A DNA stretch of 38,094 nt from a virus, in the IMG/VR virus record IMGVR_UViG_3300010885_029342, positions 1 through 38,094 of that record; one strand, 5' to 3'. The notes beneath the pieces were generated by a model, which had not been told where the DNA came from, did not search any database, and was given only the letters and a program-made list of their open reading frames with translations. The position numbers were made by a program, and so were the translations under genes. This document shows, piece by piece, positions 1 to 33,283 of the stretch (positions are counted from its first letter, which is position 1; every line of letters starts with the position of its first letter).

Positions 1-885
1 AATCATTTCACGGTCGATTTCTGCTTGGATTTCATATGCCATAGCATTTGTAATCTCAGCATCGATATCGATACCGTTCATGTTCTTTAAGTCCTGTTCT
101 AGCTCGATAGACCATTTTGCACCCAATCTACGAGTACCAGCTTCAACTGCTGTCTTTTCGAAGCTGACTTCAACAGTAGGAATGTTTGCATTAATTTCGA
201 AATTCGCTAGAATTTCGGCAACACCTCTATCTTGGTCAGAGAATTCGAAGTCTGAACCTGCGCCCAGACCAGACAATGCAGCAGCAGAAGTACCTGTGAA
301 ACGAGAATCAAGATATTGATAACCTAATTCGTTGTCGCCACCGGGTGACTTGTTATAAGGAGCAGCAGCAGAACCAGCGTAATTAACAGTAGTTTGATTG
401 TGGATTCCGGGAGCCGGTGCCCATTGACCATTCTTAGAAAAATCCTGATAATTACCACCAAGTGTATCTGCGCTATACTTATAGCGAAGTGCGAATGCTA
501 GACCAACAGGTCCAGACATAGGCTGAACACCAACGATTTCGTTAGTGATCAATTCGGGGAATGTACGACGAATCATGGGAATCAAAATCTTAGGAAGACG
601 ATTGTCACCAGTTGCGTAGAAGTCGGTGTTTGCACCAACTTGACCACCATAGTAACCATTGTTTGCAGTACCGAAAATGCCACCTGCTCCACCAGCTACA
701 TTTGCCTCACGGAGGCAATATGATTCTTGGTTTTCAAGCAACATTGCAGTATTTAAACGAGTATGTTCATCTTCGATAGGAGCGACACTCTTAGAGGTAT
801 AATTGAGCACTGGTGCCCATTTTTCCAAAAGAGTTTGTGCGCGATCTTGATCGATGTACGATTGTGCGGGTTTGATTTGTTTCAT
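1..885 (-). CDS. 23: Major capsid protein gp23 (3' end outside window)
   Basis: This is the main shell protein of T4-like heads, assembled on a gp22 core and normally trimmed at its N-terminus by gp21. The frame is open from the ATG at 885 to the window edge, giving 295 residues; T4 gp23 has 521, so the C-terminal part is missing here. Family hallmarks seen include the segments EIVGVQPMSGPVGLAFALRY and KWSIELEQDLKNMNGIDIDA followed by NAMAYEIQAEIDREM. It is the last visible gene of the gp21-core-gp22-gp23 order typical of T4-like phages. Unlike its neighbours it lacks a clean TAAATA box right before the ATG. A TATAAAAA box lies about 90 bases upstream, so it may have a real leader. The identification is secure. 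Confidence 0.96.
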   Translation of the reverse strand, partial: MKQIKPAQSYIDQDRAQTLLEKWAPVLNYTSKSVAPIEDEHTRLNTAMLLENQESYCLREANVAGGAGGIFGTANNGYYGGQVGANTDFYATGDNRLPKILIPMIRRTFPELITNEIVGVQPMSGPVGLAFALRYKYSADTLGGNYQDFSKNGQWAPAPGIHNQTTVNYAGSAAAPYNKSPGGDNELGYQYLDSRFTGTSAAALSGLGAGSDFEFSDQDRGVAEILANFEINANIPTVEVSFEKTAVEAGTRRLGAKWSIELEQDLKNMNGIDIDAEITNAMAYEIQAEIDREMI

Positions 886-980: not shown

Positions 981-1000
981 GTAAATATATTAATATTTAC
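981..1000 (-). other. Inverted repeat at end of gene 22
   Basis: GTAAATAT and ATATTTAC form perfect 8-bp arms around a 4-base loop that contains the gene 22 stop codon. It may be an RNA-processing or weak termination hairpin between the scaffold and capsid genes. The arms are AT-rich, so chance is possible. Confidence 0.35.
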
Positions 1001-1877
1001 CTAATTCGTTCATATAATTTTGAACTTGTGGAAAATTATTTACAATTTGTTTAGGATCTTCTTGTGTATCTTCTTCCAATACAACACGATCATGTTTTAC
1101 TTTCCTTTGTTCAAAAGCTTCCGTTTTTAAAGTTTTTAATCTTTCTTCTTCTTTTTTATCAAAGAGAGAAAGAGTATAATCAATATTTTCAATTATAAAC
1201 TTTGGAGTTTTACCTTCAAATATTTTTTGAGCATATTGCTTTTTCTTTTCAGGAAGATTGGAAATTTTTTGTTCTAAAACCAAATCAGCTTTTGCTTTAG
1301 ATAATGATTCACGAAGTTGCACCAATTCTTGGTTTGCTTTGGAAGCAAGTTTTTTGCTTTCTTCGATTTGAGTTTTTCCGTCAATTAATGCATCTTTTAA
1401 AGATTCATTCATCAATGCAGAATTGATAGCCAAAGATTCGCGTAAATTACTGAGAATGATACTAGCCTTTTTGTTTCTGACAGCTTCGTTAATAGATTTG
1501 GTAGGAATTTTTGATTCGATAAACAAATCGATATAATGAGAAAGCCTTTCGACCAAATCTTCTTTAAATTGTGAAGCTTGTTCTTTTACAATATGTTGAT
1601 ACTTCTTAACAACCATTTGTAATTTAGCAGCATTATTTGCATCGAGTGCTTCTACAACTCTTTCCAATTTCTTGGTATGGTCTTGATCAATAGCTTGAAT
1701 CAATTGTTCAGCTTTTGATGTATACTCAGCATCTTGTTCGGTTAATGCTTTTTCTACATGAATTTTAACTCTTTCGTCAACAGCCGAATCAAATGCTTCT
1801 TGAATTTGAGACAAAGTTTCGTCAGTTAAAATACCTTGTGTTGCTTCCTTTAAAAGGTTTGAAATTTCTTTTCCCAT
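990..1877 (-). CDS. 22: Prohead core scaffold protein gp22
   Basis: This is the likely internal scaffold around which gp23 assembles before gp21 degrades it. The 295 residues are almost wholly charged and helical, with long Glu/Lys/Gln-rich heptad-like stretches from residue 10 to about 250 and no hydrophobic domain. T4 gp22 is of similar size (269). The short C-terminal tail (NNFPQVQNYMNELGKY) resembles the end of other gp22 proteins. The position between the protease/core genes and gp23 is diagnostic. The start at 1877 follows the preceding stop by four bases, and AATAACTA, a weak version of the late box, sits five bases before the ATG. The call rests more on position and composition than on motifs. 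Confidence 0.85.
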   Translation of the reverse strand: MGKEISNLLKEATQGILTDETLSQIQEAFDSAVDERVKIHVEKALTEQDAEYTSKAEQLIQAIDQDHTKKLERVVEALDANNAAKLQMVVKKYQHIVKEQASQFKEDLVERLSHYIDLFIESKIPTKSINEAVRNKKASIILSNLRESLAINSALMNESLKDALIDGKTQIEESKKLASKANQELVQLRESLSKAKADLVLEQKISNLPEKKKQYAQKIFEGKTPKFIIENIDYTLSLFDKKEEERLKTLKTEAFEQRKVKHDRVVLEEDTQEDPKQIVNNFPQVQNYMNELGKY

Positions 1878-2231: not shown

Positions 2232-2239
2232 TATTTAGT
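2232..2239 (-). promoter_or_regulatory. Late promoter box ACTAAATA, core protein gene
   Basis: Its TAAATA core is five bases (AAAAT) before the ATG at 2226 and includes the upstream gp21 stop codon. Confidence 0.65.
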
Positions 2240-2906
2240 TAAATTTAATCTTATTTAAGAAGTCTAGAATAGATTCTTTTAAAAATGCTTCTACTTGTTT
2301 CTTAGGAAGTCTAGAAATCTTATTTTCAAAATCTGCATACACTTCTTCGAATTGTCCAGATTCACCCAATACCCATTGTTTAGATTCTAAAATACCATTT
2401 ACGAAAGCTTTAGGAAAAGAAGGATCTGCTACACAATCGATTGAAATTAATCTTAATTCTTTTACTATATTTTTACCGTCTCCTGATTCGACTAGTTGTC
2501 CTAATGCTCTTGAACTCATTCCAACTCTAACACCATCTTGAACTAAAGAACGAACTATATGACCAGAAGGTGTAGTTAAAACTTTACTTTTTCCGTGGAA
2601 GATGTTACCTTCTTGATATAAGTCAGTTACTAAATGACAAACACGATCCAAGCTAACTTCTGCTGTGCTTTCGTGATTAAGAGTTCCCATCGCTCTTCCT
2701 GTGCTAATCATTTCAGATTTATATCGATTTACTTCTTTAACCATTTCATCCAATTTATATAAACGGTTATTCCTATTATAATTTTCTGCCATCATGTATG
2801 GGCCTTTGATGTAGAGAGATGCAGGACTTTTTCTATCCTTCTCTTCAAAGATATACTCAAACTGTTCGTCTGGTGCTGGTTTTTCTACAATTAATCGTAG
2901 TGACAT
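2235..2906 (-). CDS. 21: Prohead maturation protease gp21
   Basis: Serine protease of the herpesvirus-assemblin type that digests the prohead core and trims gp23. In 223 residues it shows the family order: GPYMMAENYNRNNRLY (about residues 35-50), the catalytic-His segment GTLNHES (about 94-100), and the catalytic-Ser segment GVRVGMSSRALG (about 129-140). An ISIDCVADPSF strand follows. T4 gp21 is 212 residues, so the length is normal. The gene sits upstream of core protein, gp22 and gp23. A late box (TCTAAATA) lies five bases before the ATG, facing the divergent gene at 2981. His and Ser are visible; I cannot place the third catalytic residue with certainty. Confidence 0.93.
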   Translation of the reverse strand: MSLRLIVEKPAPDEQFEYIFEEKDRKSPASLYIKGPYMMAENYNRNNRLYKLDEMVKEVNRYKSEMISTGRAMGTLNHESTAEVSLDRVCHLVTDLYQEGNIFHGKSKVLTTPSGHIVRSLVQDGVRVGMSSRALGQLVESGDGKNIVKELRLISIDCVADPSFPKAFVNGILESKQWVLGESGQFEEVYADFENKISRLPKKQVEAFLKESILDFLNKIKFN

Positions 2907-2980: not shown

Positions 2981-3913
2981 ATGTTTAATAAGCCACTTTC
3001 TAAGTTTGATGCATATATAAAATATTTAAACGAAGCGTATATGCCGTGGAAGAGTGGAAGAAAAGCTGCTGCTGGTTTAGGTAAAAAAACATTAGTTAGA
3101 CATGCTACACAAATACGCTTAAAAGATGAAGTTAGAAAACAACAAATAGAAATTGCGATAGAATTCGGAACGGTTTTTAATGTATTAGAAGGATTAGCAG
3201 ATAAATTTTATAAAGGTAATCAAAAAAAGGTGAAACAACTTATAGCTGATTATACTGGAGTAGGAAATCCAACAGTAAAAACCGTGTTTAGTCCTTTAGA
3301 ATATGGTCTTCCTCCTTATACTATTCCTTTATATGACATTCCAAATAGGATTTTATCCATAAAAGCAAGATATCCAAACATTCAAGGTGGACAGATACAA
3401 CAAAATATACAAAAAAATTTACTCGAAAATTTTTATTTGTTGATGTGTGACTTATATAGAGAACGTGGAGGCGATCCAGAAAACATAAATGAATTAGAAA
3501 TGGTTCTTTCATTCCCAACTAAAATTCATAGTGAATTTAAAAAGTGGGGTGATGAACACAGAGATGTATTACGTCCACAAATATTTGGTGGAGAATCAGA
3601 AGCAGATAAAAACAACGAATTTATTCACATCACAAATGTTAGAGAATTAGAAGGAAGAAATTGGAATCGTTTATCAAAAGAAGAAAAAATTGGTAATCTT
3701 CTTTTTTGGGGTGATCCTCGCTCCGCAGAATCTACAGATACTACATACAAACCACAATCTGCTAGAACACCCACCAATTTAGCTGGTAAAACACTAGCCG
3801 ATCCAGATAGAAAGAAGCTAGCTGAAAAGAAACCAAGAAAAAAACCAGCTAAAAAACCTGCTGCTCCTAAAACAGAATCACCAAAACCTAAAAAGACAAA
3901 ACCTAAAAAGTAA
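2981..3913 (+). CDS. Unknown late protein with basic tail, possible internal head protein
   Basis: I do not recognise this 310-residue protein. It is the only plus-strand gene inside the head block, between gp4 and gp21, and has a perfect late box. The N-terminus (FDAYIKYLNEAYMP, about residues 9-22) looks like a short amphipathic helix ending in a possible gp21-type cleavage site after LNE. The middle is a globular mixed alpha/beta region of about 220 residues. The last 60 residues are a Lys/Pro/Ala-rich tail with repeated KKPAKKPAAPK and PKPKK units that should bind DNA or polyanions. A packaged, DNA-associated head protein is a reasonable inference, but nothing shows an enzymatic role. It ends one base from the convergent gp4 gene. 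Confidence 0.75.
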   Translation: MFNKPLSKFDAYIKYLNEAYMPWKSGRKAAAGLGKKTLVRHATQIRLKDEVRKQQIEIAIEFGTVFNVLEGLADKFYKGNQKKVKQLIADYTGVGNPTVKTVFSPLEYGLPPYTIPLYDIPNRILSIKARYPNIQGGQIQQNIQKNLLENFYLLMCDLYRERGGDPENINELEMVLSFPTKIHSEFKKWGDEHRDVLRPQIFGGESEADKNNEFIHITNVRELEGRNWNRLSKEEKIGNLLFWGDPRSAESTDTTYKPQSARTPTNLAGKTLADPDRKKLAEKKPRKKPAKKPAAPKTESPKPKKTKPKK

Positions 3914-7963: not shown

Positions 7964-9115
7964 TTAAACACTGTAAATAAAGAATAAATCTGTATTTATA
8001 GACTTAGTATCTTTCCAGCCTATTTTATTCAAAACAACTAAATTTATAGTTCCACTATTTGATAAATGAGGTAATGATACGTGAATAACATTCTTACTCA
8101 TTATAGTGTAATTAGTTTTTGGTAAAACGAATCCACTAACTGTAGGATAATATGTATAACCAAACGAAGTTAGATTAGTATATAAATTATGATTATCACT
8201 ACTTAGTAAAATATTATCAGTATATTGAAAGTTTTTTCCTAAAATTGAAAATGATACTGGATAATCAGCATGTTGAATAACAGCTTTTGTACCAGATAAT
8301 TCTATCAAATTTCCAGAGACATTTAAATATAAATTAGTTATATAAGGCGATCCCGAAATAGAAACTGTTTCGTTTTCATTTAATAAACCAGTAGTTTTAT
8401 CATAATAATAATTTTCGGAAGATAAATTATCAGTGAAAGAATCTATTTTTATGTTACTGGAAGTTCTAAAATTGGAATCTACGAAATAGATGTTGTTTAT
8501 ATAATCTTCATTAGCCTGTGGAAATAACCAGCCTTTTATGGTAAAGGATGTCGTTGCTACAAATCTTGGTTTATCGGAAGATGTAACATCTATAGGATAT
8601 TCGACATTTATCGTACCATCCCACAAAACTTCAGAACGAATTTCATTTTGAAATTGTAAACCAAAAGCATCTGGTATTTTCCAACTTATTATAATATAAG
8701 GATTAGAATAAGGCACAAAGTTAGATAATATCTGATCCATATCACTTTGATAATTAGTTAATATGTTTACAGATACTCCAACATTTATAGGAATGGGCAT
8801 TCTCAGATGACTAGTATTTTTACCCAAAACCTCATTTTTTACTGGCTGGTAAAAGCCATCAATTTTATTGAAAACTCTAGATTCGTCTCTTGCTATTGAA
8901 GTGGTATTAACAGAAATTACAGGCAGAGTAATATTTTGAGCCTTATTTGTAATATCATAAATTACTCTTTCTTTTGGGGCATGGATATAGCGTACTTTTA
9001 TTTTTTCTTTTTCTTCTCTATTTTTATTGTGTCTTGCTATTACAACATCATCCATTGCTGCCACAAATTGTGTCAGCAAATCCTGTAATTCAAAATAATA
9101 TCCATGATTATACAT
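7964..9115 (-). CDS. 15: Proximal tail sheath stabiliser gp15-like, with C-terminal extension
   Basis: gp15 caps the tail tube and sheath and binds the neck in T4. The first 215 residues follow the T4 gp15 plan: YYFELQDLLTQFVAAMDDVVI at the start, KVRYIHAPKERVIY (about 41-54), LPVISVNTTSI (65-75), PIPINVGVSVNILTNYQSDMDQILSNF then PYSNPYIIISWK (107-145), and TTSFTIKGWLFPQ (about 189-201). T4 has corresponding ITYASKEHF, ELSIFTRYEDDMFQIVEQILPYFQPHF and EVNGWMYPP. The remaining 165 residues are Asn/Ser/Thr-rich beta strands with an SILGKNFQYTDNILL segment suggestive of an added Ig/TIG-like domain. The ATG overlaps the helicase stop (TAATG). Confidence 0.72.
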   Translation of the reverse strand: MYNHGYYFELQDLLTQFVAAMDDVVIARHNKNREEKEKIKVRYIHAPKERVIYDITNKAQNITLPVISVNTTSIARDESRVFNKIDGFYQPVKNEVLGKNTSHLRMPIPINVGVSVNILTNYQSDMDQILSNFVPYSNPYIIISWKIPDAFGLQFQNEIRSEVLWDGTINVEYPIDVTSSDKPRFVATTSFTIKGWLFPQANEDYINNIYFVDSNFRTSSNIKIDSFTDNLSSENYYYDKTTGLLNENETVSISGSPYITNLYLNVSGNLIELSGTKAVIQHADYPVSFSILGKNFQYTDNILLSSDNHNLYTNLTSFGYTYYPTVSGFVLPKTNYTIMSKNVIHVSLPHLSNSGTINLVVLNKIGWKDTKSINTDLFFIYSV

Positions 9116-11538
9116 TAATATTTTAGTATGAATGAATTGTTATAAACAGTTTCACAGAATATATCAAAAGTTCCTTTTCTTGTAAAAGACTCTTTCTTTG
9201 CTGTTTTTGATTCTTCTAAGGAATCTAAAACAGTTTTAAGATCTGGATGACCTGCTAATTGTCTTCTATATTTATTGCAAAGCTTTCTTGCTATTACTGC
9301 TTGTTTATTTGATAAAGCATCTTGATGTGCTAAACTATGTCCCATCATACCGTCAATTTTATTGAAACCTACACCGTTTAATTCTTGGGCATAATCCATA
9401 TCCATCCCAGCAATAACTTTCAAAAGATTTAAGCAAGCTTTTCTAACTTTATCTGTTAAAGTAGGATCTTGTGATTCCTTTTTGATTTGTTCTGGTGTTA
9501 CATTTTTAGTCACATATTCACCACCAACATCAACAGGATGATCGACGAAAACAATATCTTCTCCAGAAGTTTCTTTTTTGTCTAGAATCTTATCGTTAAC
9601 CCCAGCTTTATTAATAAAGCTTCTTATCATAAGTTCATCAATAGAATCTTTTGCAGCCAAATAATGTATTTCTACGTTTTTATTTTGACCGATACGGTGT
9701 GCTCTATCTTCTGCTTGAATGATTGTTGTTGGTCGCCAATCAAATTCGCCAAATATAACTGTAGAAGCGGCAGTTAAAGTTAATCCTGTAGCACTCGCTA
9801 ATATAGAACCTATAAAAATTTTAATATTTGGATCATTTTGGAAATCATCCACTATGTCCGTTACTTCATCTGCTGCTGCTCCACCTATTAACATTACCGA
9901 TTTTTTCCCAAAATGTTGATGTAATCTCTGAACAACTTCTCTGTGATGTGCAAAGATAATAATCTTGTCTACAGTTTTTAATGTTTTTTCCGCATGTTCG
10001 ATTATGTGAGGTATCTTTTGTAGACCTAATGTTGCTCTTTGTTGGGAAATGGTTTCGAAAAATATTCTTTGCTTTTCCTGTAATTCGTTAGTATATTTAT
10101 TGAATTTGGAAAGATCATCGTTTGATTTTGCAATTTCGATGAAAGCGATCAATTCTTCCGTTTCTTTTCTCAATTCGTCACGAATTTGAAGTTCTTCTGC
10201 TCTCTCTTTAGTAGAGGATTCGAATGTTATAATACTTCTAGTTTTTGGTGGAATATCTTTCAGAACATCCTTTTTCAATCTACGAACCATTATAGTAGAT
10301 CTTAAAAGATCCTGCAAGGCTTCCATATCGGAATCTTTTGGTGTATCATATTCTATACCATATCTTCCTTGTCGGGCACCACAATATTTTGTAATGAAAG
10401 AATAATAGTTATTCCAACGCTTTGGTTCTAGATAATGTAATAAAGCAAATAAATCTTGAGGTTTATTATCAATTGGGGTTCCCGTTAAAAACAAAGCTTT
10501 TTTAGTTTGAACTGGCTTTTTAATATCTTCTGATGCCATCTTCCTTGCATCATAAGGATGAGTACCCAGAATTGCCATTGATCTTTTTGCAGTTTTGTTT
10601 TTCATGTAATGAGCCTCGTCAGCTATTACAAGATCAAATTCGCCCATATCATCGATTTTCTTTTTTAAATCATAAATTATATCATAGTTTATGATGATAA
10701 TACCATCTTTTCTGACGGGAAAATCTTTTTTAGTATCTACTACAGTAATTTTTCTTTTAGTTATTAACCATTTTTCTAATTCTTTTTTCCAATTATATTT
10801 TAATTTTTGAGGACAAACAATTAAAGTATTTTGGATTTCATTATCATAGACATTTATATATCCGATTGCTTGTATGGTTTTCCCTAATCCCATCTCGTCT
10901 GCAATTAGTACTTTATCTTTATTCATCGCAAATCTGATGCCAGCTTCTTGGAATGGTAAATATTTTAATCCTTCTGGAGACGGAATAGGAGAATCTGTAG
11001 GAGCATCTTCAGGTTTTTCCCTTTCTCCGTTTGATCTACTAATTTCTCTAGCATCAATATAAGGTTGAAGTTCCTTTTTTAATTCTACATCAGAATCTGG
11101 AATATATTCAAACAATCTAGATGCTGTAGCAGGATCTGATGTCCAAAAATACTTTCCGTTAGGTTCCCATCTATTATACCCCTTGGATTTAACCATCTGC
11201 CTTATGTTATCGTCGTAACCAAATTTTACAGTATATCTGTCGCCTATTTTACTTACAATTGGTCTTGAATCACTAGATGCCACAGTTGATGTAGCAGTAA
11301 CATTACTGTGTCCCGATTTATTGAGATATTCTTTATAACATTCTTCATGCATTGTTATCTTTGGGCTAGATTGCCAAAAGATCTTTTGACCAACATTAAT
11401 TCTTCCTCCGTATTTACATTCACCGTAACCACATCTTCCGGGAAATTTACTATTCATAAACCCCTCTTCAAGAACTGTCGAAACGGATTCGAGAACAGGA
11501 GCAATCTTTTTATTCTTTTTTAATTTCTGTCGATACAT
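9115..11538 (-). CDS. SNF2-family helicase with N-terminal zinc-binding and substrate modules
   Basis: An 807-residue DNA translocase of the SWI2/SNF2 group. Motifs seen: DEMGLGKT (I, 214-221), IADEAHYMKN (II), FLTGTPIDNKPQDLF (III), IIFAHHREVVQRLHQHF (IV), and IQAEDRAHRIGQ (VI). Ahead of the motor, residues 36-67 hold Cys36, Cys41, His64 and Cys67, a probable zinc site. Residues about 101-133 (RYTVKFGYDD to YFWTS) resemble the substrate-binding module of SMARCAL1-like fork-remodelling enzymes. It stands at the head of the gp15-gp20-gp13 block with its own late box, unusual for a recombination enzyme, and its N-terminus contains VLESVSTVLEEG, like a capsid-targeting/gp21 site. It is distinct from UvsW at 33714. 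Confidence 0.9.
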   Translation of the reverse strand: MYRQKLKKNKKIAPVLESVSTVLEEGFMNSKFPGRCGYGECKYGGRINVGQKIFWQSSPKITMHEECYKEYLNKSGHSNVTATSTVASSDSRPIVSKIGDRYTVKFGYDDNIRQMVKSKGYNRWEPNGKYFWTSDPATASRLFEYIPDSDVELKKELQPYIDAREISRSNGEREKPEDAPTDSPIPSPEGLKYLPFQEAGIRFAMNKDKVLIADEMGLGKTIQAIGYINVYDNEIQNTLIVCPQKLKYNWKKELEKWLITKRKITVVDTKKDFPVRKDGIIIINYDIIYDLKKKIDDMGEFDLVIADEAHYMKNKTAKRSMAILGTHPYDARKMASEDIKKPVQTKKALFLTGTPIDNKPQDLFALLHYLEPKRWNNYYSFITKYCGARQGRYGIEYDTPKDSDMEALQDLLRSTIMVRRLKKDVLKDIPPKTRSIITFESSTKERAEELQIRDELRKETEELIAFIEIAKSNDDLSKFNKYTNELQEKQRIFFETISQQRATLGLQKIPHIIEHAEKTLKTVDKIIIFAHHREVVQRLHQHFGKKSVMLIGGAAADEVTDIVDDFQNDPNIKIFIGSILASATGLTLTAASTVIFGEFDWRPTTIIQAEDRAHRIGQNKNVEIHYLAAKDSIDELMIRSFINKAGVNDKILDKKETSGEDIVFVDHPVDVGGEYVTKNVTPEQIKKESQDPTLTDKVRKACLNLLKVIAGMDMDYAQELNGVGFNKIDGMMGHSLAHQDALSNKQAVIARKLCNKYRRQLAGHPDLKTVLDSLEESKTAKKESFTRKGTFDIFCETVYNNSFILKY
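9121..9128 (-). promoter_or_regulatory. Late-promoter variant TACTAAAA before gp15-like gene
   Basis: It occupies the standard position, five bases before the ATG at 9115, but lies inside the upstream gene and differs at the last T of TAAATA. Confidence 0.3.
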
Positions 11539-16993: not shown

Positions 16994-16996
16994 ATA

Positions 16997-17024
16997 TTGA
17001 CATTAAAATTTATCATGATAAAAT
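16997..17024 (+). promoter_or_regulatory. Sigma70-type promoter, plus-strand sugar operon
   Basis: TTGACA (16997-17002), 16 bp, extended -10 TGATAAAAT (17016-17024). The predicted start lies about 12 bases before the ATG at 17043. Confidence 0.55.
17009..17022. other. 14-bp perfect palindrome between divergent sugar operons
   Basis: TTTATCATGATAAA overlaps the -10 region of the plus-strand promoter, midway between genes starting at 16993 (minus) and 17043 (plus). It is operator-like. Confidence 0.4.
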
Positions 17025-17042
17025 ATTATATCAAGATACAGT

Positions 17043-18409: not shown

Positions 18410-18410
18410 A

Positions 18411-19328: not shown

Positions 19329-19349
19329 ATAATATTGATATTATTTTTT

Positions 19350-20006: not shown

Positions 20007-20034
20007 TTTAATATAAAGCTTTAATAAATTATTT

Positions 20035-20054
20035 AGAATCTTTGTAGATTTTTT
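20035..20054 (+). terminator. Possible weak intrinsic terminator
   Basis: AATCT (20037-20041), loop TTGT, AGATT (20046-20050), then TTTT. The stem extends by a G-T and an A-T pair. AT-rich and weak. It lies between the first plus-strand sugar operon and the 20080 promoter. Confidence 0.35.
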
Positions 20055-20063
20055 AAAAAGTAA

Positions 20064-20072
20064 TGGTATAAT
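20064..20072 (+). promoter_or_regulatory. Extended -10 promoter TGGTATAAT, 3-dehydrase gene
   Basis: A consensus extended -10, with no convincing -35. It ends seven bases before the ATG at 20080, so the mRNA should start at or next to the start codon. Confidence 0.6.
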
Positions 20073-20079
20073 AATAGCT

Positions 20080-23876: not shown

Positions 23877-24730
23877 TTTATCAAATAAGGATATTTTTCT
23901 TTAATTAAATTAATAATGTTAACTGGATAATAATCGTATAAATTAATAGTTTCTAATTTTACTTGACGATTAAGTATATCTTTATTTTTATCCAAATTTA
24001 TATTTATATTTTGTAAAACAAAATTATTATTAAATTCTTGATGACTATAACTTTTTAATTTTTTAACTATTCTTTCAATCCCTCCCATGAATGACATATG
24101 CCATCCTGCATCAGTTATTAGTTTATAATTCATCCGTTTTTTTCTTAAAAATCCTAATGAATTATTTTTTATATTTTCAAATTTAGTTATGAATGTTCCA
24201 TACCATTTATCTGTAAGATTTTCATTATTAATATAATACATCATATTTTTTTGATTTAAAATATATGATTCTCCGTCAAAGACAAGTTTATTAGGATTTG
24301 GTATTTCATCCAAATCGCTAAAAATTATAATATCATCATCATTGCATATATCCATTCCGATTTTTACAAAATCTCTATGTAAAAAATCTCTACACCAATG
24401 TGATGCACCAAAATCAGTTTCTGCTGTATTTTTTATACTATTGTAGTATCCCACAATTTGATCATATATTTCTTTTTTTCTTCCTGTGTGTTGATTTACT
24501 AAATTATCAATTTCTCCAGAATTATAATGTTTTACATTTATTATTTTGTCTAAATATTTAGAAAATTTATTTTTATTTTCTTCAAAATAAAATGGTTTTG
24601 GTATTCCACTAAATGTTGTATCACATTCACTTATAATAAAATAATCAACATAATCATACATTAATTCTAATCTTATTTCTAATAAATCCAATTCATTAAA
24701 AAATAAAAAAGCATCGTATATTTTAAACAT
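23873..24730 (-). CDS. GT17 family glycosyltransferase
   Basis: GT17 includes beta-1,4-N-acetylglucosaminyltransferases. The protein (285 residues from the ATG at 24730) begins MFKIYDAFLFFNELDLLEIRL, followed by VDYFIISECDTTFSG and PFYFEENKNKF. The metal-binding segment is IIFSDLDEIPNP (about 133-144). GWHMSFMGG and the SYSHQEFN loop (about 205-230) are also typical of the family. The frame extends nine codons upstream to 24757, but the later ATG agrees with the family start and follows the FkbM stop by four bases. It belongs to the minus-strand sugar operon. Confidence 0.87.
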   Translation of the reverse strand: MFKIYDAFLFFNELDLLEIRLELMYDYVDYFIISECDTTFSGIPKPFYFEENKNKFSKYLDKIINVKHYNSGEIDNLVNQHTGRKKEIYDQIVGYYNSIKNTAETDFGASHWCRDFLHRDFVKIGMDICNDDDIIIFSDLDEIPNPNKLVFDGESYILNQKNMMYYINNENLTDKWYGTFITKFENIKNNSLGFLRKKRMNYKLITDAGWHMSFMGGIERIVKKLKSYSHQEFNNNFVLQNININLDKNKDILNRQVKLETINLYDYYPVNIINLIKEKYPYLIK

Positions 24731-24734
24731 ATTT

Positions 24735-25358
24735 TTATCTTTTGACATAAAATGCATCTCCCCATTCTGCTCCAGTTATTACGGTTTCGGCTCTTTCAAA
24801 ATTAAATTGTTTTAAAAATGAATCAATATCTTCAATTAATGCACAGTTTTCGTATAAAAAATTTGTATTAATTTCTGTATAAATATACTTTATATTATTC
24901 AATAAATCCCCAAATCCTTTTAAAGCTAATAATTCAGCACCTTGTATATCTAAATTTATAAAATCATACGAATTTATATTTAAATTTTCTTCTTTAAATA
25001 AACAGTCAACTCTTTTTGAGAATATTTTTAATGTTTCAGTTACATAAATATCAGGATAATATTTTGAATGTTCTTTTAGTTCTAAAATAGAAGAAGATTG
25101 TGTATTATTAGTCAATTTAAAATCATATTCTTTATCGTTTATATCAGATATAATATAATTATAAAACAATTCAGTATCTAATAATTTTATGTTTTTATTT
25201 ATTTCTGATAAAAGATATGGATTAGCATCCATCCAAATGATATTTTTAATGTTGCTTTTTAAATAATCTTCTCTCTCTTCCATTAAATGGGCACCAATGT
25301 GTATAATTCCTTTTGGTAAACCATATTTTTCTATTAAATTATTATAGGGTATTAACAT
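24735..25358 (-). CDS. FkbM-family methyltransferase
   Basis: An SAM-dependent O-methyltransferase of 207 residues. GIIHIGAHLMEEREDYLK (about 18-35) is the SAM-binding glycine strand. IIWMDANPYLLSEI (40-53), TQSSSILELKEH (about 87-98), RVDCLF and YDFINLDIQGAELLALKGF (about 131-149) are the standard FkbM order, the last holding the acidic D-Q-G-A-E motif. ITGAEWGDAFYVKR closes the protein. It probably caps or modifies a sugar made by the surrounding transferases. It lies three bases after the upstream GT2 gene. Confidence 0.9.
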   Translation of the reverse strand: MLIPYNNLIEKYGLPKGIIHIGAHLMEEREDYLKSNIKNIIWMDANPYLLSEINKNIKLLDTELFYNYIISDINDKEYDFKLTNNTQSSSILELKEHSKYYPDIYVTETLKIFSKRVDCLFKEENLNINSYDFINLDIQGAELLALKGFGDLLNNIKYIYTEINTNFLYENCALIEDIDSFLKQFNFERAETVITGAEWGDAFYVKR

Positions 25359-25360
25359 AA

Positions 25361-26086
25361 TTAAATTAATCTCTTTTTATATATCTGCATTGAATCATTC
25401 CATTCTGATGTATTTGCGTCTACGATAGATGTATTAGTTCCATGTAAATTGTAGTTTAATAAACAATCTTTCATGTTTCTAATTTTAATCCCTTGAGCTA
25501 AACATCTAGTCCATAATTCAAAATCTTCTGGAAAGTTTTTTGGTGTTTCGGCATATAAACCTACAATATCAAACAATTCTTTTCTGAACATAACAGTGGG
25601 ATGGTTCATAAACCAACCAACATTATATTTTATAATTGTATCTTTAGATACAATTTCTGGGTGAGAAGTGATATTGTTTTGTTGAATGATTTTCATTTGA
25701 GATCCAACAATATGAACGTCTTTATTATTTTCTAGATAATCTATTTGTTTTTCTAGACGATCAGGATGCATCCAATCGTCGGAATCCATTCTCGCAATAT
25801 AATTACCTTTAGATTTTTTAATTCCCTCGTTCAAAGAGGTTGACACTCCTCTTTTATGCTCTTGCTTTGGACTATAAAGCATTTTAATTTTATCTATATT
25901 TTTAAATCTAGATAAACACTTTAAAGTTTTTTCATTTGTAGATTGATTATCTATAATAAGTAATTCAAAATTTTGATGTGTTTGATTTAAACATGACAAA
26001 ATAGATTGTTCTAACCATTCTGGTATAGTATTATAAACAGGCATCACAATAGATACCAGATTTAAACTTCTAGTAGAGATTTCCAT
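25361..26086 (-). CDS. GT2 family glycosyltransferase (copy 2)
   Basis: A canonical GT2 enzyme of 241 residues: VSIVMPVYNTIPEWLEQSI (11-29), QTHQNFELLIIDNQSTN (about 34-50), GNYIARMDSDDWMHPDRLEKQ (about 93-113, with the D-S-D-D metal site), VGSQMK, and the acceptor-side FPEDFELWTRCL (about 189-200, E-D-F-E-L-W). It is closer to the classical pattern than copy 1 at 17043. It overlaps the upstream GT-B-like gene by 25 bases, showing cotranscription. Sugar donor unknown. Confidence 0.92.
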   Translation of the reverse strand: MEISTRSLNLVSIVMPVYNTIPEWLEQSILSCLNQTHQNFELLIIDNQSTNEKTLKCLSRFKNIDKIKMLYSPKQEHKRGVSTSLNEGIKKSKGNYIARMDSDDWMHPDRLEKQIDYLENNKDVHIVGSQMKIIQQNNITSHPEIVSKDTIIKYNVGWFMNHPTVMFRKELFDIVGLYAETPKNFPEDFELWTRCLAQGIKIRNMKDCLLNYNLHGTNTSIVDANTSEWNDSMQIYKKRLI

Positions 26087-26850
26087 AATTCTAAAATTTC
26101 TGTATTAGTTAAAGTTGAAACTTCTGGGCTTGTAGCTTCATTTCCAAAGAATTTTGTATTAGTTTGATAACATTCATCTTTTACTAGACATGCACACTCA
26201 CTAATCGAAGAATGATAGACTCTTCCTACAGAATCATACATACCCTGTTTATCTTCGTTGAATTGTATATGAATAACTTTAGGATTTGATAATAAAGATT
26301 TTACATATTTATTATAATACGGAGCATCATTTATAGGTCCATATACAAATATCTTTTCGCAATTATCATCCAAAGCTCTTTTGATAGAGATGTGTGTTTG
26401 TTTATTTTCATCAATACTGCCAATAACGCCAGCAATATTATCCAATGATTCCTTAGATCTGGATATCAAACCATTGTCTTTAAGATTAGGGATTATCCTA
26501 TAATCCCCTTTATAATTAGAATGATAATTTTTATGTTTTTCATTTAGAAAAACTGCCGTATCCCAAAATTGTTTGACATTTCCTACTTCGTATAGGTTTT
26601 TTTCGTGACATGATAAAATGACTTTTTTTGCAGTAGGTCTTCTTTTGATTGGTAAAAAATGAGCTATTACTACATCGTCTGGAAAGATTGAAGCCGTTTG
26701 TATTTTTCCTGATTTACATTTATTTAAATGCCAATTATGAGGACCATAAAAAATAGCATCAATTCCTATTTCATTCAAATGATTTGTTAGTCTAATAAAC
26801 GAAATCGTAGATCCACCTTTTTCTGAATAACCCGTTAAAATTTTTACCAT
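26062..26850 (-). CDS. GT-B-like glycosyltransferase
   Basis: A 262-residue protein beginning VKILTGYSEKGGSTISFIRLTNHL, the glycine-rich first strand of GT4-like enzymes. AIFYGPHNWHLNKC, HFLPIKR, VILSCHEKNLYEVG (about 91-104) and AVFLNEKHKNYH (about 112-123) follow. The C-terminal half, IAGVIGSIDENKQT and KIFVYGPINDAPYY, is the nucleotide-binding Rossmann part. A final NEATSPEVSTLTNTEILELW contains an E-(x)-E-like element. It is short for GT4 (usually 350 or more). First gene of the minus-strand sugar operon, with a strong sigma70-type promoter ending eight bases before the ATG. Confidence 0.75.
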   Translation of the reverse strand: MVKILTGYSEKGGSTISFIRLTNHLNEIGIDAIFYGPHNWHLNKCKSGKIQTASIFPDDVVIAHFLPIKRRPTAKKVILSCHEKNLYEVGNVKQFWDTAVFLNEKHKNYHSNYKGDYRIIPNLKDNGLISRSKESLDNIAGVIGSIDENKQTHISIKRALDDNCEKIFVYGPINDAPYYNKYVKSLLSNPKVIHIQFNEDKQGMYDSVGRVYHSSISECACLVKDECYQTNTKFFGNEATSPEVSTLTNTEILELWKSLLEV

Positions 26851-29625: not shown

Positions 29626-30357
29626 TTAACGTTTAATTTCAAGACCATTTTTACCACCAAAATAAATTAAAATGTAAAGCCAATCTTGTTTTTCAGAGTT
29701 GGTTTTTCCGACTCCTAATGGTTTAAAATAGATTTGTATGTCTTGTTTTATACCTTCGAAAACTTTGTCTACATCAGCTAGACGTTTTTTATAATCTTCG
29801 CCTTCGTTAGTTTTTAAATTTTTTTCAGTTTCAGCAGAAATTAGTTTTATTTTTTCTTTTAATTTATTTTGAACGTTAGAATCAAATAAATTATATTTAT
29901 TTAAATCTGTTTCTGAAATTAATTTTTTAATACCTTCTATTTGATCAATATCTATTGATCTAGCTGTTCTTCTATATCTATCAATTGTGCTCGCAGTTTC
30001 AATTTCTCCGTAAGATAATGTAGTTCTGTCTATTTTCCGTCCTGTAGATAAATGAGGTACGTATGTAGAATCTGTAAATGTAATTTTTGTATTTGTAAAA
30101 TTTGGATCATTTTTTAAATCAGTTTTAACCTTTTCCAAAATTTCTTTATTTTTACTTCTTACTTCTGATCTCTCTGTGGCTTGTTGTTGCCTTACTTGAC
30201 TTGCTGCTTGTACAAAAGGGTTATCCGCATATGCATTTTTAACAACATTTTTTAAAGCAGTTCCAATAGTCCTAGGAACCGCAGCAGCGACAGATCCTAA
30301 CAATCCTTCTGCTACAAATTCTTTCATATATTCATTGTATGTCTTATTAAATTTCAT
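29626..30357 (-). CDS. Unknown late protein with capsid-targeting-like N-terminus
   Basis: Function not recognised, 243 residues. The first 18 residues (MKFNKTYNEYMKEFVAEG) closely resemble the T4 capsid-targeting sequence of internal proteins (MKTYQEFIAE in IPIII), with a gp21-like cleavage site after VAE. Then come LLGSVAAAVPRTIGTALKNVVKNA, a weakly hydrophobic stretch, and a mostly helical, Lys-rich body up to a compact end (DWLYILIYFGGKNG). If cleaved and packaged it would be ejected with the DNA. The start overlaps the upstream gene's stop; no late box of its own. It belongs to the late minus-strand set 32083-29626. Confidence 0.72.
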   Translation of the reverse strand: MKFNKTYNEYMKEFVAEGLLGSVAAAVPRTIGTALKNVVKNAYADNPFVQAASQVRQQQATERSEVRSKNKEILEKVKTDLKNDPNFTNTKITFTDSTYVPHLSTGRKIDRTTLSYGEIETASTIDRYRRTARSIDIDQIEGIKKLISETDLNKYNLFDSNVQNKLKEKIKLISAETEKNLKTNEGEDYKKRLADVDKVFEGIKQDIQIYFKPLGVGKTNSEKQDWLYILIYFGGKNGLEIKR

Positions 30358-30782
30358 TACATATACTCCGTTCTATATATATCTAACAGATCTGCATCTG
30401 TGCATCCATTATCTTTTAAGAATGTTTCCAACATCTCAACATTAGAACTATTCATTACCATTTGAACTATTGGACTATCGACTGTAATAGATTTATTTTC
30501 TTTTAAATAAACCAAAACATTTAATTTTAATTTTTCAAATTTAGACAATCCACTTTCAACATCAATCATATTACAGGGAATATTTACAATTACCCCTCCA
30601 TCTACTTCTTCGAAATACATTTTTGCGTCAATACCATCTTCTGCTAGAATATACCCTTCATAGCCTTGAAATTTGGATATTTCTCCCCTTTCGCAAAAAG
30701 CAGGATCTACTTTCAATCTAACTTTTCTTAGATTTGAAATTTTTATAGTATTTTCTAAAAATTTATCGAAACGACTACTCAT
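30357..30782 (-). CDS. Unknown 141-aa late protein
   Basis: Not recognised. It starts SSRFDKFLENTIKIS, again a short aromatic/charged helix like its neighbours. An SH3-like beta region follows (RKVRLKVDPAFCERGEI, KFQGYEGYILAEDGIDAKMYFEE, GGVIVNIPCNMIDV, about 19-75), then helices with VQMVMNSSNVEMLETFLKDNG and TDADLLDIY near the end. It could be a small DNA- or protein-binding head component. The box GTTAAATA lies five bases before the ATG and overlaps the upstream stop codon. Confidence 0.72.
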   Translation of the reverse strand: MSSRFDKFLENTIKISNLRKVRLKVDPAFCERGEISKFQGYEGYILAEDGIDAKMYFEEVDGGVIVNIPCNMIDVESGLSKFEKLKLNVLVYLKENKSITVDSPIVQMVMNSSNVEMLETFLKDNGCTDADLLDIYRTEYM

Positions 30783-30786
30783 ATAA

Positions 30787-31191
30787 CTATTTAACTTTAA
30801 CTACAGCATTTATTGGTTTTAAAAATTCCAAACCTAATAAAACTTTTTCGTCGTTATCTTTTCTGTCACAGATGCTAAAATTTACATTTTTATAAATTTT
30901 ACCTTTTAATTTAAAATCAAATTTTACTATAGGACGATCTTCTATGTTAGAAGCACCAATATTTATTTTTATTTTATCTACTAATGGTCTGGTAATCTCT
31001 TTACCTTTATCCGTTTTGAATGTTACAACATCATTTTTAATTTTTATATCTTCCCCATGAACTGCACAATAAGCATCATTACCAGTATCAACCTTTGCGG
31101 TGTACTTTCCTAAGCCTTTTATTATAACATCTTCTTTTGGTAATAAGACAACAGTCTTTTCTTGTTTATAAAATTCCTCAAATAAGATCAT
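30787..31191 (-). CDS. Retropepsin-like aspartic protease domain protein (PF05618-like)
   Basis: The 134-residue protein resembles the RimB/'ATP-dependent zinc protease' group, which adopts a retropepsin-like fold: KYTAKVDTGNDAYCAVHG (about 29-46, with the Asp-Thr-Gly of aspartic proteases), TFKTDKGKEITRPLVDKIKI (about 58-77), NIEDRPIVKFDFKLKGK (about 83-99), then FSICDRKDNDEKVLLGLEFL (about 106-125), where DR and LLG correspond to the family's second conserved half. A short N-terminus MILFEEFYKQEKT resembles its neighbours' leaders. The perfect late promoter puts it among virion or assembly genes. Catalysis is unproven; it could bind peptides only. Confidence 0.72.
   Translation of the reverse strand: MILFEEFYKQEKTVVLLPKEDVIIKGLGKYTAKVDTGNDAYCAVHGEDIKIKNDVVTFKTDKGKEITRPLVDKIKINIGASNIEDRPIVKFDFKLKGKIYKNVNFSICDRKDNDEKVLLGLEFLKPINAVVKVK
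30788..30795 (-). promoter_or_regulatory. Late promoter box GTTAAATA, 141-aa gene
   Basis: Five bases (GTTAT) before the ATG at 30782. It includes the stop of the retropepsin-like gene. Confidence 0.6.
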
Positions 31192-31196
31192 TAAAC

Positions 31197-31204
31197 TATT
31201 TATA
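31197..31204 (-). promoter_or_regulatory. Perfect late promoter TATAAATA, retropepsin-like gene
   Basis: Exact consensus. Five bases (GTTTA) to the ATG at 31191. Confidence 0.8.
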
Positions 31205-31206
31205 CC

Positions 31207-31608
31207 TTACAAAGTAGATGTAAGACCGGGTTTTTTATTTTTATCTTTTAATCCTCCTACAGCAGCAATAGCTTTAGCTTCTGGAGAATTTGGATTTGCT
31301 GCCTTCTTCAAGGCATTAATTTCATCTTGTTTTTCTTTAACTGCTTTTTGTTCTTCTTCTGGAGAAAGTGCCTCATCATCTTCGTCTTTAATCTTTTTTT
31401 CGAAAATGTATTTTTTTAAATATTGATTAATTTTACTGTCAAAAGATTCATCAGCCTTTTTATAGACTATAGCTTCTGCTTGCTTTTGAGCAGCTTCTTT
31501 TGATTTTGGTTTAGAGTTTCCAATTTTTCCTGTTTTTTTATAAGAAGACATCAATTCACCAATATTTGCACTCCTTGTTTTTTCAGATTTTCCAGATTTT
31601 AAAGGCAT
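31207..31608 (-). CDS. Small Lys-rich late protein, DUF6496-like N-terminus
   Basis: 133 residues, very polar. The first half, PLKSGKSEKTRSANIGELMSS then KSKEAAQKQAEAIVYKKA (about 36-53), matches the short motif 'SGKSxKTxSxNIxELxxxG.....KQAxAIA' of a small phage/bacterial protein group (DUF6496-like), here stretched by an insertion of about 14 residues. The rest is charged and helical, ending in a disordered tail. No enzyme motif. Its late box, GGTAAATA, is five bases before the ATG. Such proteins are usually annotated as hypothetical; an internal head or scaffold-like role would fit the context. Confidence 0.7.
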   Translation of the reverse strand: MPLKSGKSEKTRSANIGELMSSYKKTGKIGNSKPKSKEAAQKQAEAIVYKKADESFDSKINQYLKKYIFEKKIKDEDDEALSPEEEQKAVKEKQDEINALKKAANPNSPEAKAIAAVGGLKDKNKKPGLTSTL

Positions 31609-31612
31609 AAAG

Positions 31613-32083
31613 TTATTTACCTTTCTTTATATATTTTTTATAATAAAAACCTTCTGCCATAGGTTCATCGGTTTTTTTATTATAAAAATCATCTACTTCA
31701 GATACAGCGTCTTCAATTTGACCTAAACCATCAGCAGACGATTGAGTCAAGGAAGCTTTTTTAATCGTTGTTAAAAGGTTTGCAATTTTTGGTGGATACT
31801 TAGCATTACCAATTCTTTCTTCATTTCTAAGAAAGTCTACAATTTTACCCAAAAGAGAAACCATTTCATCCATAGCGGTTTCCACTTGATCTGTCATTTT
31901 ATTACCAGCTTTTTCTACATCTTTTGCTGCCTCTTGTTTATCATCTGGTGCAGCACCTCCTGCATCTTGCGGAGGTGGCATTGCGGCATCTCCACCTCCT
32001 ACCCCTTTATCTGGGGCTGGTGCTTCTGGTGGACCTTCTTCCAACAAATTGTACGTTTTTTTAACTAATCTAGAAAACCTCAT
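31613..32083 (-). CDS. Unknown late protein with capsid-targeting-like N-terminus and Pro/Gly linker
   Basis: Not recognised, 156 residues. Residues 1-16 (MRFSRLVKKTYNLLEE) form a basic amphipathic helix ending in a gp21-like LEE site. Residues 17-45 are a Pro/Ala/Gly/Asp linker with PPEAPAPDKG and MPPPQDAGG units, similar in style to the portal tail. Residues 46-140 are helical, with MTDQVETAMDEMVSLLGKIVDFLRNEERIG and a probable coiled coil. The tail FYYKKYIKKGK is basic. The late box AATAAATA stands five bases before the ATG. Layout fits a processed internal or scaffold-associated head protein. Confidence 0.72.
   Translation of the reverse strand: MRFSRLVKKTYNLLEEGPPEAPAPDKGVGGGDAAMPPPQDAGGAAPDDKQEAAKDVEKAGNKMTDQVETAMDEMVSLLGKIVDFLRNEERIGNAKYPPKIANLLTTIKKASLTQSSADGLGQIEDAVSEVDDFYNKKTDEPMAEGFYYKKYIKKGK
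31614..31621 (-). promoter_or_regulatory. Late promoter box GGTAAATA, DUF6496-like gene
   Basis: Five bases (ACTTT) before the ATG at 31608. It includes part of the upstream TAA stop. Confidence 0.6.
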
Positions 32084-32087
32084 AAGT

Positions 32088-32600
32088 TTATTTATTTAAT
32101 AAACGTTTTGTTTCTAAGCAATTTTTAAGCTTTAAATTCAAATGAGATAAATTATTTTTCTTAGTGTAGTCTACCATTTTTTTGTAATTTAATTTATTCT
32201 TGTTTTGAATGCAAGATTTTAATTTATAAATTAACTGCAAGTCGTCAATTTTCTCGTATTGAGATTCAAAAAAATTAAAATTAAAGATTTTTATTGACTT
32301 TTTTAAAATATCATTTATAATTGCTTTACAAGCTTCTTCCTCAAATGTAATATTTAAATATTTTAAATTATAATTAAAATTAATTAATAAAATATTATCA
32401 TAATTTATTTTAATTTGTTTAATTATATTATCTAATATAAAATGTTTAAAAATATTTTTTAAATCTCTTGAATTTAATTTAAGATTTAAATTATTTTCGT
32501 ATAAAAAATTTGATATATTTAATTCTATTTGTTCTGATAATAAAGAATTTAGGAAAATTAAATTTAAATTGTATTCCTTGAATTCATGAAAAAAAATCAT
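32088..32600 (-). CDS. Unknown 170-aa protein under a consensus early promoter
   Basis: Not recognised. The protein is dominated by Asn, Leu, Ile, Lys and Phe (about 15 residues of LNLIFLNSLLSEQIEL type near the start) and is probably all-helical and soluble, with no signal peptide or clear membrane span. Coding is even more AT-rich than its neighbours. It is driven by the best promoter in the window, a perfect TTGACA-17-TATAAT with five bases to the ATG, so it should be expressed very early and strongly. It could be a host-takeover factor; nothing in the sequence says which. Late genes follow it with their own boxes. Confidence 0.7.
   Translation of the reverse strand: MIFFHEFKEYNLNLIFLNSLLSEQIELNISNFLYENNLNLKLNSRDLKNIFKHFILDNIIKQIKINYDNILLINFNYNLKYLNITFEEEACKAIINDILKKSIKIFNFNFFESQYEKIDDLQLIYKLKSCIQNKNKLNYKKMVDYTKKNNLSHLNLKLKNCLETKRLLNK
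32089..32096 (-). promoter_or_regulatory. Late promoter box AATAAATA, 156-aa gene
   Basis: Five bases (AACTT) before the ATG at 32083. Overlaps the stop of the 170-aa early gene. Confidence 0.65.
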
Positions 32601-32605
32601 GATCT

Positions 32606-32634
32606 ATTATAACATAAAGAAAATATCTTGTCAA
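32606..32634 (-). promoter_or_regulatory. Perfect-consensus sigma70 promoter, 170-aa gene
   Basis: TTGACA (32629-32634), 17 bp, TATAAT (32606-32611) with TGT extension. Five bases (AGATC) to the ATG at 32600. Predicted +1 falls within the start codon. Confidence 0.85.
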
Positions 32635-33030
32635 CTAAAATTTTACTTTTCCTAAACGGAGGTTGATGATACCGTTATAGTAATCTTCTTTTATTAAGAC
32701 TTCTCTGTCGAATTGTTCTTTCGCTTCAAAATATGCCATTTGACTTTTATTGGCACAAAATCTTATTATTTGAAATTTAAAATTAGAAATTCCGTATTTT
32801 TCGATATCTTGGTTCAATTCTTTCGAAGAACTAGTATAAGTTCTCCATTTAGATTCTACGACACAACGTCTAGGTCTATTTTTACCTTTTAGTGGTTTTC
32901 TTTTAATATTGGATATCATTTGTTTTTTTCCAATATATTTTTTATCTGTAATAAGATTTGTTATTAGATATATAAATCCATAAGGATTTTCTGGAATTTC
33001 TTGATCTGTTGTCCAATGCCCTAGATTCAT
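32635..33030 (-). CDS. GIY-YIG endonuclease-like protein (Seg-type)
   Basis: The 131-residue protein has the GIY-YIG core: YGFIYLITN and KKYIGKKQM (about 16-38, GFIY...YIG), a Lys/Arg-rich loop, then WRTYTSSSKELNQDIEKYG (about 64-82), FKFQIIRFC, and EAKEQFDREV with the metal-binding Glu near residue 103. A terminal YYNGIINLRLG is typical of T4 Seg-like enzymes. No separate DNA-binding domain is evident. The frame opens at 33036, but the ATG at 33030 lies exactly five bases after ATTAAATA and is preferred. It may be a free-standing homing endonuclease or a late DNA-processing nuclease. Confidence 0.82.
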   Translation of the reverse strand: MNLGHWTTDQEIPENPYGFIYLITNLITDKKYIGKKQMISNIKRKPLKGKNRPRRCVVESKWRTYTSSSKELNQDIEKYGISNFKFQIIRFCANKSQMAYFEAKEQFDREVLIKEDYYNGIINLRLGKVKF

Positions 33031-33035
33031 GGACA

Positions 33036-33043
33036 TATTTAAT
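33036..33043 (-). promoter_or_regulatory. Late promoter box ATTAAATA, GIY-YIG gene
   Basis: Five bases (TGTCC) before the ATG at 33030. This decides against the ATG at 33036, which overlaps the box. Confidence 0.55.
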
Positions 33044-33283
33044 TTATTTTTTAGATTTTCTAGATCTAGTAGTTTTTTTGTTATTTTTTAAATTTCTTGC
33101 TTCATAAGTACCAAAAATTGATTTACCAATTACATTTGATCCAGAATTCCAAAAATCAACACTTCCAACTACATTACCATAACTTCCAACAGGACCAGAT
33201 TGTGGCGATCCTAATGTGCTAGCTGGCCCACCAGCAACCATTTGCTCCATCAATTGATTATATAATATATCAAATTTATTCAT
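33044..33283 (-). CDS. Small late protein with capsid-targeting-like N-terminus
   Basis: 79 residues. MNKFDILYNQLMEQMVAGG repeats the pattern of the late proteins at 29626 and 31613: an amphipathic aromatic helix followed by small residues. A Gly/Ser/Pro-rich middle (GPASTLGSPQSGPVGSYG, about 18-35) and a basic tail (KNNKKTTRSRKSKK) complete it. No fold is recognisable; it may be a small packaged or DNA-binding head peptide. Its start codon overlaps the -35 element of the divergent uvsY promoter, and its late box lies inside that promoter's spacer. Confidence 0.7.
   Translation of the reverse strand: MNKFDILYNQLMEQMVAGGPASTLGSPQSGPVGSYGNVVGSVDFWNSGSNVIGKSIFGTYEARNLKNNKKTTRSRKSKK

Follow-up and report, generated by a model that had tools for sequence, protein, structure and literature searches.

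Candidate gp21-cleaved capsid-targeting leaders on unrelated late proteins of a T4-type virus fragment and its relatives

Results

Leader-bearing genes of the window

The DNA analysed here is IMG/VR record IMGVR_UViG_3300010885_029342, a 38 kb virus fragment from a lake-type, T4-type myovirus (38,094 nucleotides (nt), hereafter the window), which encodes several proteins with short aromatic N-terminal leaders similar to the capsid-targeting sequences (CTS) of phage T4. In T4 such sequences precede the internal proteins IPI, IPII and IPIII and the protein Alt (Mullaney and Black, reviewed in PMC9026906 and PMC3012670). They are propeptides of about 10-19 residues with key aromatics, at positions 4 and 7 in IPIII. 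Cleavage by the T4 prohead protease gp21 follows L/I-x-E; in IPIII, residues 4 and 7 are responsible for targeting and residues 8 and 10 for processing (PMC9026906). A Glu-to-Asp change in IPIII stops the processing and leaves targeting intact. The window encodes a gp21-type protease (2235..2906, minus strand; phrog_207 head maturation protease, E=6e-53), which is presumably the processing enzyme, and gp21 is also encoded in the contigs of relatives and in C48C1, HTVC008M and P-SSM4. A preliminary description of the window had named six leaders, and all six were found at the N-termini given, with lengths of 11-18 residues and a phenylalanine or tyrosine in each.

One leader gene lies beside gp21 on the plus strand (2981..3913) and has a late-promoter motif 5 nt upstream. 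The protein starts with MFNKPLSKFDAYIKYLNE (2981..3034), with a predicted cut before Ala19, and finishes in a Lys/Pro-rich basic C-terminal tail that is histone-like. Its structure model shows a helical core with a disordered basic tail, at low confidence (mean pLDDT, the predicted local distance difference test, of 55), and no fold match was obtained for this model against the PDB and viral models. The protein is likely to be an internal DNA-binding cargo.

The remaining five leaders are on the minus strand. The 243-residue protein at 29626..30357, which has no family match in PHROGs or Pfam, carries MKFNKTYNEYMKEFVAE (30307..30357), the leader closest in look to T4 MKTYQEFIAE, with a predicted cut before Gly18. 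Overlapping this gene by one base is that of the 30357..30782 protein, where the leader-like N-terminus MSSRFDKFLEN (30750..30782) was compared with the N-termini of homologues. The homologues of these two genes appear joined in the relative G001 (98414-99157) and in contig L005 (724-1602), with the leader of the second gene kept inside. The protein at 30787..31191 starts MILFEEFYKQE (31159..31191), its relatives start MKSFKKFFEA, MKTFKQFFEA or MQTFKQFFFE, and it is retropepsin/Zn_protease-like (PF05618, E=9e-6, just under the Pfam cut-off). Leader MRFSRLVKKTYNLLEE (32036..32083) belongs to the 31613 protein, with a late-promoter motif at 5 nt; its cut is predicted at either LLE↓E or LEE↓G. 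The last, MNKFDILYNQLME (33245..33283), heads a protein at 33044..33283 similar to T4 61.1, with a predicted cut before QMVAGG. The product of T4 gene 61.1 (L162:18966, minus strand) itself has a CTS-like N-terminus, MKTFKEFIKEDMVAGDSGG, after which its body opens in a similar way to that of the 33044 protein. Among the leader strings of the window are FDAYIKYLNE, from the 2981 protein, and KTYNEYMKEFVAE.

A further candidate leader precedes a SNF2-type helicase (9115..11538, minus strand; SNF2 domain E=2e-35), in which ...SVSTVLEE↓GFMNSKFPGRCGY (11464..11538) contains a candidate site LEE↓G. The homologue in the relative G004 differs up to LEE↓G and agrees from there on.

Two further genes lie among these. 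The protein at 31207-31608 begins with MPLKSGKSEKTRSANIGELM, a match to phrog_2423 (E=4e-5); behind this comes FDSKINQYLKKYIFE, a leader-like stretch with which the L008 homologue starts. A homing-endonuclease-like protein (32635-33036; phrog_7363, E=5e-23) is inserted in the leader-gene cassette; its best hit is phrog_447, named NAD synthetase (E=5e-33), and it occupies the same place in most relatives.

Conservation of the predicted cleavage site

The 2981 family gave the clearest conservation. In an alignment of 19 homologues that are 14-68% identical to the window protein (542 columns), the only invariant residues were M1, E18 and A19. Next in conservation are columns mostly within the leader (F, E, Y) and the C-terminal tail; the body diverges, and the remaining 22 glutamates of the window protein occur in 5-74% of rows. 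Relatives of this family were found beside gp21 in many contigs. This leader had been rated among the less clear ones; it proved to be the strongest case. In G004 the homologue carries LIFERYMESIDE in place of FDAYIKYLNE, with a body that is 69% identical directly after E↓A, and a LIFExY-class leader is found on 2981 homologues in G004 and most others.

The other families retained the glutamate to different degrees. In the 33044 family it is present in 9/9 sequences (LME, LLE, ILE, LAE, FYE, IKE) with L, I or F at P3, which corrects the earlier reading of this leader to one with a conserved glutamate, LME↓QMVAGG. All eight 31613 homologues contain [LI]xE, and E↓G is kept in 5/5 homologues of the 29626 protein. 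Relatives of the 31191 start keep an [FY]xx[FY][FY]-type leader with varying glutamate spacing, and those of 30782 keep a leader-like start with an inconsistent site. L/I-x-E at the leader end was found in the 2981, 31613 and 33044 families, not strictly in 29626, and the glutamate position shifts in 30787.

We also observed candidate sites at C-termini. Members of the 2981 family have a conserved tail, xxE↓SYxxFIKxIPF, behind the Lys/Pro-rich linker, which is absent from the window copy, and the 31613 protein ends MAE↓GFYYKKYIKKGK in both the window and G004. By analogy with T4 Alt, these tails are possibly a second propeptide removed by gp21. A genome-wide C-terminal propeptide code was considered and rejected, as the pattern was convincing only for the 2981 family and the window and G004 31613 protein.

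Exchange of leaders between homologous proteins

Varying leaders on homologous cargo were observed in the 2981, CTKVT/RARHKC, KTGGPCGR, 33044 and 31613 families. The KTGGPCGR family carries MKFDDLVDKYLTE, MNKFQELVEFLLE or MKTFEEFFTE, the last being close to T4 MKTYQEFIAE; it carries several leader classes, and leader classes therefore interchange. The exact 4/7 aromatic spacing of IPIII was seen only in relatives, for example in MKTFKQFFEA and MKTFEEFFTE.

CTKVT...RARHKC is a family of small basic cargo, annotated as HVA1 family in one phage. In most T4-like relatives its leader ends at or near [LIVM]xE just ahead of the body. In the gp21-bearing Kyanoviridae C48C1 and HTVC008M the protein is N-terminally extended and passes into the body at [LI]xE↓A or LxE↓A-like sites (LTE↓AEYQGKKVTLNKP, LEE↓AEFQGKKVTLNDP), whereas in CRP-738, CRP-901, Kolga, HTVC106P and elemoA, which are without gp21, it begins at the body, e.g. 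MAKYQGRTVKLNKP.

It could be argued that the leaders are amphipathic helices for oligomerisation, or for docking to membrane, tail or baseplate, next to which the glutamate site is incidental. The 30782 family and some others do keep the helix and not the site, and a helix is predicted at residues 6-19 in the low confidence model of the 2981 protein. However, no feature of the 2981 family as a whole is better conserved than Glu18-Ala19, leaders are missing from homologues in phages that lack gp21, and decoy sites were unenriched in the counts given below. We consider this explanation quite improbable.

Enrichment of the gp21 site at N-termini

Five long relatives were read in addition to the window: G001 (236 kb), G002, G003, G004 and G005. 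Using the gp21 consensus from the literature, [LI]xE[AGS], starting at residues 8-31, we found nine occurrences in seven window proteins versus 2.6 expected (P=0.0014), 16 versus 4.9 in G004 and 33 versus 17 in G001 (P=3.5e-4 for G001 alone). Pooled over these three the count was 58 versus 24.4 (P=5e-9), a value that is somewhat optimistic because the window and G004 share homologues. Decoys showed no enrichment at N-termini when P1 was D, K, Q or N, when P3 was V, M or F, or when the motif was reversed; a decoy shifted by one residue showed a weak one (1.6-fold, P=0.007). L.E was enriched at N-termini (ratio 1.42, P=5e-8), and A.E and S.E, as in the phiKZ-type S/A-x-E motif, were not (0.87 and 1.01). 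The [LI]xE[AGS] site was in excess in C48C1 and P-SSM4, not in Bellamy or S-CREM2, and was unenriched in five small phages without gp21 (21 versus 17.4, P=0.22).

In G001 two leader families front unrelated proteins, 'MxFDxLVxxILEE' and 'MNDEELIWEAY'. The leader pattern occurs at 13 N-termini versus 1.3 expected and the LIWExY pattern at 14 versus 0.2; the P values of both are descriptive because the patterns were written after inspecting G001. Approximately 36 G001 genes match a leader pattern, and these genes are scattered over the genome. The exact MNDxxLIWExY form is narrow, because its DNA pattern matched only G001 and one other contig; looser forms are wider.

Late promoters

The motif TATAAATA (31197..31204, minus strand) lies 5 nt upstream of the 30787-31191 start codon, and similar motifs with at most one mismatch peak exactly 5 nt before start codons, at eight genes in the window (2981, 4943-6115, 6131-7948, 2235-2906, 26901, 28855, 30787 and 31613) and 26 in G001. 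Three of the eight, 2981, 30787 and 31613, are leader genes. Overall 35 leader genes had a late-promoter motif versus 11.2 expected (stratified test, P~1e-15).

In T4, P-SSM4, C48C1 and Bellamy the late-promoter motif is spread mostly ~19-30 nt upstream. Shine-Dalgarno-like motifs were nearly absent from the window (2/48) and G001 (17/343), compared with 133/270 in T4. Late mRNAs would be leaderless, provided that initiation has the T4 spacing.

Leader-bearing proteins in the virions of cultured relatives

The virion proteome of S-CREM2 has been determined by mass spectrometry (PMC10665884, Table 3). A strict T4-derived pattern, [YF]xxF[ILVMF]xE within residues 2-35, occurs in six of its 219 proteins, and five of the six are in the virion list, compared to 52/219 overall (Fisher P=0.003). 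Against non-virion proteins, with named structural proteins left out, the P value was 2e-4. The five are a SAM hydrolase, a Cas9-like protein, an APH-like kinase, a cytidylyltransferase and gp136. In S-SCSM1 (PMC9602691) the virion NMNAT starts MKSFLQFLKE↓A; the second strict match, a 106-residue protein undetected in virions, is encoded between two virion genes. S-CREM2 gp160 and S-SCSM1 gp97, whose likeness to the 33044 protein (MxAGxxG...GPxxGY) was judged by eye, are also virion proteins by mass spectrometry. As a positive control in T4, a slightly wider pattern found IPII, IPIII, 61.1 and one unlikely hit.

These data also bear on whether the leaders could be chance resemblances, or misannotated starts in AT-rich genomes. 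The motifs are short, the gene calling was simple and the patterns were partly picked after inspection. Nevertheless, the [LI]xE[AGS] motif came from the literature and was run with controls, the S-CREM2 mass spectrometry is independent, and the late-promoter motif 5 nt upstream backs several of the starts. Chance and misannotation together are barely credible, and we rejected them on the decoys, the phages without gp21 and the mass spectrometry.

Nature of the proteins behind the leaders

The preliminary description held that the proteins behind the leaders are unrelated, and we agree: the query families gave no cross-matches, and the G001 list and Pfam gave the same picture. Leader-bearing cargo in G001 includes a GNAT acetyltransferase (E=2e-8), a PcfJ-like protein (4e-7) and a RyR domain (1e-7), with weaker matches to a ParB-like domain (0.002) and a Zn-peptidase-like protein (2e-4). 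A G001 'LYHAT' cargo was considered as an ADP-ribosyltransferase (ART) and set aside; the assignment was based on sequence appearance alone, with no match in Pfam and no further relatives found. The window's leader-bearing proteins are mostly of no recognised fold.

A different explanation is that the leaders are prodomains that ordinary structural proteins of the head or neck need for assembly and lose to gp21, with neither a cargo code nor ejection. In its favour, several window genes are conserved in the clade and located within or close to the head genes, and proteins of the 33044 and 2981 types may be abundant components of the structure or core. Set against this are the enzymes and regulatory domains that follow leaders in relatives (GNAT, PcfJ-like, ParB-like, peptidase), the scatter of these genes over G001, and the leader-bearing SAM hydrolase, kinase, Cas9-like protein and nucleotidyltransferase in S-CREM2 virions. 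We regard it as unlikely.

Genomic context

The head module lies on the minus strand and comprises the major capsid protein, scaffold, gp21 protease, portal, neck and tail-stabiliser genes. The gp23-like major capsid protein (1..885, minus strand), its start placed from the G001 homologue, is cut by the window end and has a predicted propeptide site YCLRE↓A. Between it and the protease is a scaffold or core protein, assigned by position (990..1877, minus strand), with a site NLLKE↓A near the N-terminus that is present in 49/64 cluster members. Other window genes are UvsY-, UvsW-, gp55-, gp47- and PhoH-like, with UvsW and gp47 assigned by appearance. Between the head genes and the PhoH/UvsW region there is a large low-GC island (15331-26850) with strand switches, which contains glycosyltransferase-, fucosyltransferase-, nucleotide-sugar- and aminotransferase-like genes by sequence; G001 has an analogous island.

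Hundreds of relatives were found in IMG/VR by the protease, and portal matches in isolated phages reached only ~30% identity. PHROGs and Pfam searches of the window proteins gave mostly no match, and a single-sequence search of viral contigs confirmed no close relatives of the 29626 and 33044 proteins.

Discussion

Taken together, the leaders are very probably capsid-targeting propeptides cleaved by gp21. Our confidence in the CTS-like label is high but not full, because targeting and cleavage are inferred for this clade. In the mechanism we propose, an amphipathic aromatic helix of 10-18 residues would dock the late-made protein onto the prohead core, and after assembly gp21 would cut behind the hydrophobic-x-Glu at the helix end. 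The mature protein would stay inside the DNA-filled head and could enter the next cell. One such code would front many unrelated proteins across the T4-like clade, using at least two leader classes, a T4-like 'FxxFLxE / FDxLVxxILE' and 'NDxxLIWExY...LxE'. Whether this amounts to a general, swappable head-packaging code with several dialects, the new 'NDxxLIWExY' among them, that loads tens of effectors per virion is in our view evenly balanced.

Several observations weigh against reading the leaders as gp21-cleaved propeptides. Relatives of the 30782 protein keep the leader-like start with no consistent cleavage site, P3 in the 29626 family is V, L or Q, and P1' is often not A, G or S in the 33044 and 31613 families. 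Genome-wide enrichment of the N-terminal site in T4 itself is weak (P=0.08), the bare [LI]xE[AGS] site is unenriched among S-CREM2 virion proteins, and the two leader patterns were written only once G001 had been inspected. The virion proteomes come from two relatives, S-CREM2 and S-SCSM1, and their direct evidence concerns the T4-like leader class, not 'NDxxLIWExY'; in S-SCSM1 only 2/276 proteins match the strict pattern, one of them detected in virions (P=0.3, in a proteome too small for significance).

The preliminary description had seen T4-type propeptides on unrelated late proteins and had suggested host-takeover functions. Site enrichment, conservation and late promoters bear out the former; for the latter, hints come only from the G001 domains and the S-CREM2 virion enzymes. 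A host-takeover role is plausible for the GNAT, ParB-like, PcfJ-like and peptidase cargo of relatives, judging from their domains. For the window's own proteins we claim no such function; those with leaders, other than the 30787 protein and the SNF2 helicase, would be internal cargo.

T4 is the only phage for which capsid targeting by a short cleaved leader has been worked out in detail. If the code is general, genomes and metagenomes could be read for the proteins that T4-like viruses bring into cells, covering many small unassigned proteins and the so far unexplained virion enzymes of cyanophages. The leaders would also serve as ready-made tags for loading proteins into the heads of other phages, and would allow direct tests of how cargo is recognised by the core.

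The window shares with the T4 system a short aromatic N-terminal propeptide, a predicted L/I-x-E site for gp21, unrelated mature proteins and gp21 itself, and the leaders MKTFEEFFTE and MKSFLQFLKE of relatives are nearly identical in form to MKTYQEFIAE. Its clade differs in having other leader sequences (FDxLVxxILE and NDxxLIWExY), leaders of 13-18 residues with wider spacing and a far larger number of candidate cargoes per genome, and in being mostly freshwater metagenomic and known from sequence. In the T4-like cyanophages S-CREM2 (PMC10665884) and S-SCSM1 (PMC9602691), virions contain nucleotidyltransferase, kinase, SAM hydrolase and Cas9-like proteins, on which we found T4-CTS-like N-termini; no wording on targeting, leader or cleavage was found in the S-CREM2 paper. 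Within the open-access literature we found no LIWEAY-type strings, nor any mention of cyanophage CTS leaders. The head propeptides of the giant phages phiKZ and SPN3US (PMC5694885) are similar in that a Glu-directed prohead protease processes ejected head proteins, and in the N-terminal conservation between diverged cargo (gp53/gp54). Several of those propeptides exceed 100 residues, with S/A-x-E in phiKZ, whereas the leaders here are short and T4-like. Finally, polyvalent proteins (PMC5512222), thought to be delivered with DNA, have overlapping domain types (GNAT, ParB-like, SWI2/SNF2 and peptidases); they are large and multidomain, whereas the proteins described here are mostly single-domain, each with its own leader.

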